DNA of 64,000 nucleotides from Sphingopyxis alaskensis RB2256 (GTDB lineage Bacteria; Pseudomonadota; Alphaproteobacteria; Sphingomonadales; Sphingomonadaceae), in the NCBI RefSeq assembly GCF_000013985.1, contig NC_008048.1:1860001-1924000 (forward strand), written 5' to 3'. A program made the translations under genes and the position numbers. The notes under the pieces are model-generated. The model did no database searches. It saw nothing but the letters and a program-made list of their open reading frames with translations, and had not been told where the DNA came from. Below are positions 54,122-62,271 of this stretch, in pieces; position 1 is the stretch's first letter, and every line of letters begins with the position of its first letter.

Positions 54122-54303
54122 GCCACCGGCCCTGCCGCGCGCATTGGTCGGCGTGCGCGGCCGCGTTTTCCTGCCTGCTGCGTCGCTTGTCTGGCTACGC
54201 GGCCGCCAAGCTTATGCCGGGGATGCTAATCGCGCGCCTGTGCGTTGGCAAGCGGACTCATGGCGCCGATTGACGCGGTAACATCAAGGGATTGCTCACA
54301 TTA
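54122..54303. other. Promoter region of the Anbu cluster, no gene seen
   Basis: About 180 bases between the ATP-grasp start and the 267-bp element. No clear hairpin or motif beyond AT-poor sequence. Confidence 0.35.
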
Positions 54304-54570
54304 GAGCGCGATGACCTGATATTGACCCACCGTGATTGCCCCCTGAAGTTCGTCGGCAAGAAGCGTCTCGCAGGACGGGCTGGTTGCCCGGACCAGAGAC
54401 GCGCCGCTGTCCGGCGGGCTTCAGGGGGCAACCCCTCCAGGGCGGGTCGATTTTGGCCGATTGCCACGTTGCTCGTCGGGCGCGATGTCCCGCATCGCGC
54501 CGCTCCTCGCGCCTCGCACTCGGCCAAAATCGCCTCCGTCACGGTGGATCAATATCATGTCATCGCGCTC
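54304..54570. mobile_element. 267-bp MITE-like element, copy 1
   Basis: The ends GAGCGCGATGACCTGATATT and (reverse) GAGCGCGATGACATGATATT form ~32-bp terminal inverted repeats. TA flanks both sides (54302-54303 and 54571-54572). The inside is rich in nested dyads (TGCCCCCTGAAG with CTTCAGGGGGCA; GCGTCTC with GAGACGC), so a transcript would fold strongly. No transposase is encoded. Copy 2 lies inverted at 61650-61916 with the same length. Confidence 0.85.
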
Positions 54571-59905: not shown

Positions 59906-60553
59906 TCATTCGCGCAGTCCTCGCAGCGCCGCACCCGCCGCAAACGGACCGATCACCGTCAGCAGCAGGCTCGTCGCCGCAAGCAGCTTGATCGCGCCGC
60001 GTCCCGACGGGTCGAGCATCCCGGCGCCAAAGATCAGCAGCGGCACCGCGAGCGGGAGTATGAGCAGCCCGCCGACCGCGCTCCCGCCCTTGTGACCGGC
60101 GGTCAGCGCGGCGCTCAGCACCGCAAGCGACGCGAGCGCCGGAACCGCGAGGGCAATCCCCATCGCAAGCGTTTCGACGCGCGCGGCGTCCTGCGCGAGC
60201 AGGGCGGAGGCGGGCAGGAGCGCGACGAGCAGCGGTATGCCAAAGGCGATCGCGTGCGCGACAATCTTCACGGCTGCGACCAGCTCATCGGCGAAGCCGC
60301 GGACCGCGAGCTGATCAAGCACGCCCGCGTCGCGGTCGGGCCGCACCAGCCGGTCGATCGGCAGCAGCGCGGCGAGCAGCGCGGCCACCCAGACCATTCC
60401 GCCGCCCGCACGGCGCAGCAGCGGCGCGTCGGGGCCAACCGCAAAGGGAAAGGCGGTCGCGACGAGCAGGAAGAAGAGCACCGGCAGCCACAGCGCCCCG
60501 CTGCCCCACGCGCGGCGCAGGTCGCGCCAGAAGAGGGCGATAAGTGCGGTCAT
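59906..60553 (-). CDS. ccmB: Heme exporter protein B (cytochrome c maturation)
   Basis: 215 residues with six hydrophobic segments (ALWLPVLFFLLVATAFPFAV; MVWVAALLAALLPIDRL; IAFGIPLLVALLPASALLA; LAVPALASLAVLSAALTAG; GGLLILPLAVPLLIFGAGM; LLAATSLLLTVIGPFAAGAA) and the family's RPDRDAGVLDQL. With CcmA it forms the ABC complex that releases holo-CcmE. No ccmC, D or E follows here; they must be elsewhere. Confidence 0.9.
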   Translation of the reverse strand: MTALIALFWRDLRRAWGSGALWLPVLFFLLVATAFPFAVGPDAPLLRRAGGGMVWVAALLAALLPIDRLVRPDRDAGVLDQLAVRGFADELVAAVKIVAHAIAFGIPLLVALLPASALLAQDAARVETLAMGIALAVPALASLAVLSAALTAGHKGGSAVGGLLILPLAVPLLIFGAGMLDPSGRGAIKLLAATSLLLTVIGPFAAGAALRGLRE

Positions 60554-60662: not shown

Positions 60663-61247
60663 TCATGCCAACACCCCCATAACCAGCTCGTCCAGATCGG
60701 GAATCGCCAGCGCGAAATGCGACGCCAGCAACACCGCGCCGCCGTTCGCGCGGTGCGTCGCAATCGCCGCCACCAGCCGCGCGGTCGCGGCCTGGTCCAT
60801 CCCGTTCGCGGGTTCGTCGAGCAGCCAGATCGGCGCGCCGCTGGCGATCACCCGCACCATCGCCGCGCGCCTTCGCTGCCCCGTCGAAAGCATCGCCACC
60901 GGCACGTCGGCCAGGGTGTTCAGCGCCATCATGTCCATCGCCCGGTCGACGGCATGACCGTCGACCGTATCGACCCGCGCCCAGAAATCGAGCGCGCGGC
61001 GCAGCGGCAGTTCGGAATCGAGCGCCGCCGCCTCGTCGATCAGCGCGATCCGCCCGCGGCGCACGACCCTTCCCGCGGCGGGACGCAGCAGCCCGGCGGC
61101 GAGACGGATCAGGCTCGATTTGCCCGCGCCGTTCGGCCCGCGCACCCAGAGCGCATCGCCGCGGTTCAGAGCGAGCGACAGCTCCTCAAAGACCAGCCGG
61201 TCGCCGCGGATGCACGCGACGCCGTCGAGCGCCAGCAGAACCGTCAC
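60663..61247 (-). CDS. ccmA: Heme exporter ATP-binding protein A (cytochrome c maturation)
   Basis: 194 residues, a compact ABC ATPase: Walker A GPNGAGKSSLIRLA, signature MLSTGQRRRAAMVRVIASG, Walker B IWLLDEPANGMD and the switch His region (VLLASHFAL). Partner of CcmB. Its start overlaps the stop of the metallopeptidase gene upstream by 4 bp. Confidence 0.93.
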   Translation of the reverse strand: MTVLLALDGVACIRGDRLVFEELSLALNRGDALWVRGPNGAGKSSLIRLAAGLLRPAAGRVVRRGRIALIDEAAALDSELPLRRALDFWARVDTVDGHAVDRAMDMMALNTLADVPVAMLSTGQRRRAAMVRVIASGAPIWLLDEPANGMDQAATARLVAAIATHRANGGAVLLASHFALAIPDLDELVMGVLA

Positions 61248-61663
61248 GCCATATCCTCAAGCGCGTGCATATCGTCGTCGGAAAAGCCGAAATGATGGCC
61301 GATCTCGTGGATCAGCACATGGCGCACCAGCCAGTCGAGCCGTTCGCCGCCCTCGATCCATTCGACCAGGATGGGGATGCGGTACAGCGTCACCCGGTCG
61401 GGCATCCCACCGCTTTCGCCGATGCTGCGTTCGGTGAGCGGGCGCCCTTCGTAGAGTCCGGTGAGGTCATAGGGATGTTCGATGCCCAGCGAGGCCAGCA
61501 CCTCGTCGTCAGCGAACTCCTCGATCGAAATCACGACGCCCTCGATATGCGGTCTGAACACGTCGGGCATGGTTTCCAGCGCCGCTTCGGCCATCGCGAA
61601 CAGCGCATCGGCGTCGGGGGCGGCGCCGGTCCATCCGGCTGACAGGCTAGAGCGCGATGACAT
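61244..61663 (-). CDS. Zincin-like metallopeptidase whose start was replaced by a MITE
   Basis: 139 residues as now read. The catalytic motif HEIGHHFGFSDDD (HExxHxxGxxD) and SIEEFADDEVLASLGIEHPY and DLTGLYEGRPL are typical of the short zincin family next to ccmA. The 267-bp element at 61650-61916 sits in codon 5 of the original gene. The old start (MSDKS, ATG at 61930-61932) is now cut off and reads into the element for 8 codons only. The element's end provides ATG at 61661-61663, giving MSSRSSLSAGWTG where the ancestral protein would be MSDKSSLSAGWTG. The ribosome site there (GGTGGG) is weak, so expression may be reduced. Confidence 0.82.
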   Translation of the reverse strand: MSSRSSLSAGWTGAAPDADALFAMAEAALETMPDVFRPHIEGVVISIEEFADDEVLASLGIEHPYDLTGLYEGRPLTERSIGESGGMPDRVTLYRIPILVEWIEGGERLDWLVRHVLIHEIGHHFGFSDDDMHALEDMA

Positions 61664-61916
61664 GATATTGACCCACCGTGACGGAGACGATTTTGGCCGA
61701 GTGCGAGGCGCGAGGAGCGGCGCGATGCGAGATATCGCGCCCGACGAGCAACGTGGCAATCGGCCAGAATCGACCCGCCCCGGAAGGGTTGCCCCCTGAA
61801 GCCCGCCGGACAGCGGCGCGTCTCTGGTCCGGGCAACCAGCCCGTCCTGCGAGACGCTTCTTGCCGACGAACTTCAGGGGGCAATCACGGTGGGTCAATA
61901 TCATGTCATCGCGCTC
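61650..61916. mobile_element. 267-bp MITE-like element, copy 2, inside the metallopeptidase gene
   Basis: Ends GAGCGCGATGACATGATATT at both sides as ~32-bp inverted repeats, flanked by TA (61648-61649 and 61917-61918). Same length as the copy at 54304-54570 and nearly the same sequence, but inverted. Removing the element and one TA restores an uninterrupted frame ATGAGCGACAAGTCTAGCCTG. Confidence 0.88.
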
Positions 61917-61983
61917 TAGACTTGTCGCTCATCGCGCCCTTTCTTATGGCGACCGCACGGCATTGACCAGCGGGAGAAAAACC

Positions 61984-62271
61984 ATGGTGCAGAAACTCGA
62001 CGATGCGCAGCGCAGCGCGCTGCTCGCCCGCTTCCCCCAATGGACGCACGACCCGGTGCGCGATGCGATCACGCGGCAGTTCCGGTTCGACGATTTCGCG
62101 CAGGCCTTCGGCTTCATGGCGAGCGTCGCGATCGTCGCCGAAAAGCTGGACCATCATCCCGAATGGTCGAACGTCTATAACCGCGTCGACGTGCTGCTGA
62201 CGACGCACGATGCCAACGGACTTTCGGAGCGCGACGCGAAGCTCGCGGAGGCGATCGAGGCGCTGCTCTGA
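61984..62271 (+). CDS. phhB: 4a-hydroxytetrahydrobiopterin dehydratase (pterin-4a-carbinolamine dehydratase)
   Basis: 95 residues. The active-site histidines H57, H58 and H75 are in [16 protein letters not shown] and [14 protein letters not shown]. It recycles the pterin cofactor of phenylalanine hydroxylase. Its 5' region originally lay back-to-back with the metallopeptidase start; the element insertion has left about 65 bp upstream. Confidence 0.93.

Follow-up and report, generated by a model that had tools for sequence, protein, structure and literature searches.

The window, i.e., the whole 64-kb stretch of the Sphingopyxis alaskensis RB2256 genome analysed here, contains a minus-strand run of three genes in the order metallopeptidase, ccmA, and ccmB, from which a 4a-hydroxytetrahydrobiopterin dehydratase (PCD) gene diverges on the plus strand with its own start intact (61984..62271). 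The first gene of the run, in its present form, is an ORF of 139 aa with a Zincin_1 metallopeptidase domain (61244..61663, minus strand; PF06262, E=9e-36). It is followed by ccmA (60663..61247, minus strand; TIGR01189), whose start shares 4 nt with the end of the metallopeptidase gene, and by ccmB (59906..60553, minus strand; PF03379 and TIGR01190, the latter match lying under the TIGR01190 cut-off). A 267-bp element occupies positions 61650..61916. It is bounded by terminal inverted repeats of 32 bp, the left one on the gene side (61650..61681) and the right one at 61885..61916, and flanked by a TA target duplication (left, 61648..61649; right, 61917..61918), the ends being written TA/GAGCGCGATGACATGATATTG. 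With their flanks included, the arms are 38 nt long and 97% complementary.

The element has the features of a MITE: it is short (267 bp), has terminal inverted repeats and no transposase gene, and is present in dispersed near-identical copies. At least 17 full copies exist in the genome, the other 16 being 96–98% identical to the one described here, and all 17 have TA on both sides. The copy numbers given in this work are lower bounds because only part of the candidates was scored (40 of 68 in the own genome, at most nine per genome in the searches of 80 genomes, and two per genome in the search of 397 genomes). Within the window, the terminal-repeat motif has four matches, corresponding to two elements, vs. 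none in shuffled sequences; the second copy (54303-54570, genome copy L050) was classed as intergenic. The longest internal ORF (85 aa; 61647-61904, minus strand) begins at the inward ATG of one repeat, ends with the TAG formed at the opposite TA, and overlaps the donated ATG described below. Many close copies have this frame open, but in other and distant ones its ATG is missing or the frame is cut, so that conserved coding by the element was rejected. We also found a 65-bp mini-derivative, in which a pair of terminal repeats face each other with only a short stretch in between (G000:C2:2452906-2452970), and two relatives of the MITE with GAGCGGCGTGCTGT-ATATCTGAT ends (L057 and L059). The start of an end of this type directly adjoins the right flanks of L050 and L051, and these are nested or adjacent elements of the superfamily. 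A TAGGGTCAGGAC-like sequence, which resembles the ends at IS5-family loci (L311), directly adjoins copies L041 and L051 and appears in a shorter form at L043, L054, and L107.

Relatives of this MITE also occur outside the genus. A family-wide search of 397 genomes gave matches in 58 genomes and in 30 of the 96 sampled genera, with 28 new loci, all of them in other genera. Exact 24-mer ends were found in three of 80 genus genomes (own included), and a single contig of a named contig collection, from Sphingopyxis solisilvae R366, matched the terminal repeat exactly, in a search that may omit the window's own record. A TA duplication at YTAR is typical of the IS427-like group of the IS5 family, and the present MITE shares this trait at 16 of the 17 own copies and 39 of 44 genus sites. 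The TA duplication also fits a MITE mobilised by IS630/Tc1-mariner elements. The own genome has 11 matches to PF13340 (IS5-family), three of which were examined, and IS5-family elements of the same genus (L299, L303, L311, and L293) have ends TA/GG... or TTA/GAG...; among the 30 PF13340 loci examined in several species, none had the terminal repeat of the present MITE.

At the metallopeptidase gene, the insertion target is CTAG, with the T as third base of codon 5 and the A as first base of codon 6. Joining the flanks without the element gives ATGAGCGACAAGTCTAGCCTG..., i.e., MSDKSSL, and the element end read toward the gene is ...GGTGGGTCAATATC ATG TCA TCG CGC TC/T AGC CTG TCA, which changes the N-terminus from MSDKS/SLSAG to MSSRS/SLSAG. 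The donated ATG (61661..61663, minus strand) is in frame with the metallopeptidase, and the 139-aa ORF from this codon (61663-61661) to 61244 reads MSSRSSLSAGWTG. The severed native ATG (61932-61930, minus strand) now opens a leader ORF, MSDKSRAR followed by a stop (61906..61932, minus strand), whose stop codon (61908-61906) lies inside the terminal repeat, and the native Shine-Dalgarno (SD) sequence AAGAAAGGG (61937..61945, minus strand) is now 5' of the element. An earlier note on this DNA had proposed that any insertion in the given frame and orientation would donate the peptide MSSRS. Orientation is irrelevant for the window copy and codon phase decides, because both of its ends carry ATG; across the 17 own copies, 23 of the 34 ends have ATG and 11 have AGG. 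The second ATG of the window copy (61903..61905, plus strand) points outward, 81 nt upstream of the PCD gene and in frame with it, opening a 122-aa ORF that runs into the PCD sequence (...MVQKLDD). Apart from this in-frame extension, no convincing second gene starting with MSSRS from the repeat was found in this genome.

The metallopeptidase gene is present in 56 of 60 sampled genus genomes, own included, and its start region was read in all 56. Among the 55 other genomes, 54 have a native-type start, ATG-NNN-(GAC/TAC)-AA(G/C), which is exactly ATGAGCGACAAG in 43 of the 55; CATAAGG is found within 20 nt upstream of the start in 53, and AAGGAAGG just upstream in 46. The exception is L159, with a different start. 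The insertion of the window is absent from all 55, the own genome being the only one of the 56 to carry it. Since this start region is shared by 54 of the 55 relatives, the native protein start is MSDK. The empty sites, together with the ORF itself, confirm the central claim of the earlier note, namely that the element splits the gene after codon 5, disrupts the old start, and provides an in-frame ATG giving nearly the same N-terminus. In another Sphingopyxis species, a related MITE with other terminal repeats (L150 in G038, 695-962) has entered CCATAAGG at its TA, on the 5' side of the SD of the same gene, and the native start is retained. This is a parallel event in the same spacer, some tens of bases from the window insertion.

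The SD-like sequence of the donated start, GGTGGG (61672..61677, minus strand), had been regarded as weak in the earlier note, a view that the calculated duplexes contradict. Its duplex with the anti-SD has -6.2 kcal/mol. This exceeds the strength found in 60% of 301 genes called in the own genome, as well as that of the own native site (-3.1 kcal/mol), while the native sites of the relatives are about equal or slightly stronger (median -6.7 kcal/mol, range -7.1 to -3.8). The donated SD is ordinary, not weak. According to the folding predictions, the obstacle to the donated start is the pairing of the 32-bp terminal repeats in read-through RNA, which would bury it. The element is predicted to fold as a hairpin of -184 kcal/mol (z -15), with a mean unpaired probability from SD to ATG of only 0.004 in read-through RNA; the predicted value at the empty site is 0.58. 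When the RNA begins inside the element, 25–120 nt upstream of the ATG, the prediction is 0.48–0.54, and it is 0.48 if a ribosome keeps the leader MSDKSRAR open. Being buried in read-through RNA but open in these other RNAs, the donated start would be usable provided that transcripts originate within the element or that the hairpin opens, and not otherwise; each of these two routes we infer. A sigma-70 scan of 61560-62060 detected no promoter toward the metallopeptidase; its one match is on the plus strand, facing away.

Translation might also begin elsewhere, either at an in-frame TTG inside the element, from which a frame of 171 aa is open, or at Met24 (MAEAAL...), yielding a longer or a shorter protein, respectively. 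The gene caller in fact preferred 61594, that is Met24, and the Zincin_1 match begins at residue 41, so a protein starting there would also retain the domain (residues 41-135). However, the donated ATG has a usable SD and preserves the native length, no SD was seen by eye at Met24, and TTG is a less favoured codon. We consider a start at either of these sites quite unlikely.

Another explanation is that expression of the metallopeptidase is abolished, or almost so, by the insertion, with the in-frame ATG being a coincidence of phase and ccmA being expressed from another promoter. The burial of the donated start in the predicted read-through RNA speaks for it, as do the 11 of 34 ends with AGG, the prior of phase 3 alone (57 of 121 coding YTAR sites), and the gene-breaking copies found in other genera (L369 and L379, see below). 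Against it, the ORF is intact and its median omega vs. relatives is low (0.110, rank 8 of 54 taxa, range 0.089-0.222, with L158 and L159 excluded) and not relaxed, although a recent insertion would leave the same pattern, and omega may not reveal a change of that age. Moreover, at 25 of the 31 loci with enough sequence, ccmA begins within the terminal 4 nt of the metallopeptidase gene, own included (in 25 further loci the sequence was too short to see ccmA), and because of this overlap the loss of metallopeptidase translation would probably reach cytochrome c maturation. The replaced and extended starts described next (L130 and L179, and L108 and L131, respectively) also argue against silencing, which we view as possible but rather doubtful.

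Replaced starts were also found in two other species. At L130, in another species, the element lies in the stop TAA of one gene that overlaps codons 5-6 of the next one, and the N-terminus MSLRP/KLFRL of the empty site (relative L316, 97% identical) becomes MTSRS/KLFRL with the element; the downstream gene has no Pfam match and was found in 38 of 40 genus genomes with a loose cut-off. At L179, with a different terminal repeat, MPGSRAK, present in three of four close relatives, is changed to MAENRSK before an ABC-permease gene, and in one of the four (L343) the native ATG is replaced by ACG. Two more copies produce in-frame extensions in which the called native start is kept downstream, as judged from gene calls, sequence, and Pfam only, not from relatives: L108, in the stop of a response regulator gene, places MSSRSR ahead of a histidine kinase (its called GTG start and the T of the target TA are 4 nt apart), and L131 places MASRSNSLS before a nucleotidyl-transferase gene. 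At L111, the element end near 1768 is inserted 10 nt before a gene (MSDERIWTAAVL...) and is not in frame. The donated mini-ORF, MASCSKAKR followed by a stop, terminates exactly at the native start called there, within its ATGA, an overlap that could couple it to the native gene.

Where an ATG-bearing repeat has an outward gene start at most 30 nt away, five of six are in frame, a count in which the window metallopeptidase (L039) was placed by hand, the caller having chosen a spurious gene. For gene starts 30–150 nt away, the figure is two of six (L107, with an intervening stop, and the PCD gene at L039). The P-value for five of six is 0.018 if p is set to 1/3, 0.085 with the YTAR phase prior of 57/121, and 0.12 by Fisher's test vs. 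the far set, and this in-frame excess near gene starts, post hoc and from a small sample, is suggestive only. In the independent set from other genera (28 loci), no near-start cases were met. The clear coding insertions in the genus (L039, L130, L179, and L208, the last one being a phase-2 insertion that has an in-frame TTG) are all within the first six codons, vs. a background of six of 121 coding YTAR sites in the first 8 codons; L282, where the gene call fuses two genes, was left out. This is a tendency and not a rule, since L369 (codon 123 of 173, near 1476) and L379 (codon 165 of 183, near 1500), both in other genera and in phase 2, lie inside genes, where they donate no start and replace the C-terminus by element-coded residues. 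By eye, their hosts are a membrane-protein-like gene and a prepilin-peptidase-like gene, respectively.

Gene context was assigned with a codon-usage gene caller trained on 464 kb of the own genome (441 genes), classing the sites with TA on both sides on their joined flanks. The TA falls exactly in the stop codon of a called gene in 10 of the 17 own copies and 15 of the 27 sites in other Sphingopyxis (25 of 44 for the genus including own), and the same is true for 10 of 13 TA-TA sites in other genera. Because the first base of the element is G, the stop is rebuilt in place (TA+G = TAG). The background, derived from the own genome only and applied to other genera too, contains 61 stop-codon sites among 393 YTAR sites (15.5% expected), giving P-values for the excess of 5.5e-5 (own), 1.9e-6 (other Sphingopyxis), 3.9e-10 (genus), and 1.5e-6 (other genera). 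Vs. non-coding YTAR sites alone (61/272), they are 0.0013, 1.9e-4, 8.4e-7, and 4.7e-5, respectively, an excess that would shrink if 5' regions were removed from this non-coding background. Counting only the eight own loci supported by Pfam, P is 0.0022, or 0.022 vs. non-coding sites. Pfam backs the gene at eight of the 10 own stop-codon loci, eight of the nine tested among the 15 in other Sphingopyxis, and 10 of 10 in other genera. Two of the domains reach the last residue (244 of 244 at L045 and 315 of 315 at L375), as expected of true C-termini.

The 44 genus sites, own included, are those with TA on both sides, with L168 retained among them despite an unlikely boundary (253 bp). Another 37, not TA-TA or with poorly matching ends, were left out of the gene-context classes, and nine of these 37 have the stop of a called gene exactly at the TA side. 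The 28 loci of other genera comprise 13 TA-TA sites, 12 that are not, and three with no recognisable ends; outside stop codons, their TA-TA sites are two that interrupt genes (L369 and L379) and one classed as intergenic. L122 was called as inside a gene but is located 5' of the SD. In nearly half of the genus copies (for example L106, L113, and L120 of the 37) and at 12 of the 28 other-genus loci, the ends are intact but TA is one-sided or absent, which neither drift nor a 2-bp duplication explains well.

The residence in stop codons may involve no targeting at all, with insertion at any YTAR and purifying selection sparing the harmless copies, a view compatible with the other readings discussed here. 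It agrees with the YTAR targets of most copies (16/17 own, 39/44 genus), with a background in which coding YTAR sites are few (121/393) and stop-codon sites make up 61/393, and with the two gene-breaking copies, which show that other sites are used too. On the other hand, the excess persists when only non-coding YTAR sites are compared (P = 0.0013 own, 8.4e-7 genus, and 4.7e-5 other genera), and we give selection alone about an even chance.

The sequence shows that the MITE inserted at CTAG in the first gene of the metallopeptidase-ccmA-ccmB run, that the native ribosome site and the first five codons were thereby severed from the remainder, and that the element end now places an ordinary SD and an in-frame ATG before codon 6. 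In the reading that we favour, the gene, and ccmA through the 4-nt overlap, would now be translated from the donated ATG. In read-through RNA the paired terminal repeats would hide this start, and initiation would occur on RNAs whose 5' end lies within the element, or while a leader ribosome on MSDKSRAR holds the 5' arm open. Copies of the family usually reside in stop codons; the present one would be among the few coding insertions to be tolerated, because the protein loses only codons 2–5. Judging from the sequence, it seems fairly probable that the cut gene and ccmA are translated from the donated ATG. A phase rule for this repeat describes both situations: with the T at codon position 1 the stop is remade, and with the T at position 3 the upstream ORF terminates in the fourth element codon and the downstream ORF would restart. 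The most likely course is entry at YTAR sites followed by survival mainly in stop codons, with coding insertions faring best where, as at the present locus, the element end can restart the gene almost at once. It is unlikely, in our opinion, that the family is adapted to enter packed operons while leaving translation unbroken, with the G remaking the stop, the repeat supplying a start in one of the two coding-frame phases open to a YTAR target, the upstream ribosome opening the base of the hairpin, and the genes remaining coupled across 267 bp.

The possibility of start donation by a MITE end is already in print, in the available portions of the article on MITEAba12 of Acinetobacter, whose end could, according to its authors, donate a start and fuse with neighbouring coding sequences (PMC6382973). 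Those portions describe no start-replacing insertion, and MITEAba12 differs from the present element in its 9-bp duplications, its length of 111-114 bp, and its AT-rich targets with no motif (PMC6382973). The enterobacterial ERIC/RU-1, RU-2, and RU-3 resemble our MITE in their TA duplication, stable stem-loop, and fusion to gene ends, and YP_0349 consists, in its N-terminal part, of RU-2 sequence, as far as the accessible text of both sources goes (PMC2759123, PMC2229807). RU-1 at ECA3499 removes the stop and lengthens the protein, unlike the present element, which rebuilds it (in the same portions of PMC2759123, PMC2229807). The Rickettsia palindromic elements, as presented in part of a review (PMC10969869), are likewise short palindromes in coding genes with a compatible frame, but translation passes through them and yields a fusion, whereas the present MITE would be bypassed, with a stop before it and a restart after. 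Literature searches on stop-codon insertion, which covered their sources in part, returned no report of MITEs residing in stop codons, the terms "start codon" and "stop codon" are absent from the main text of a 2024 review of prokaryotic MITEs, and a literature search yielded no paper on MITEs in Sphingomonas.

The phase relationship seen here would be a simple rule for the entry of mobile elements into dense bacterial genomes, one phase rebuilding stops and another one starts. As the stop is rebuilt at once, the element can often enter crowded DNA with little damage. The replaced starts and the empty sites in close relatives represent natural test pairs for transposon ends as translation starts, and the stop-codon habit in Sphingopyxis, repeated in other genera, provides a testable rule of target choice or selection.
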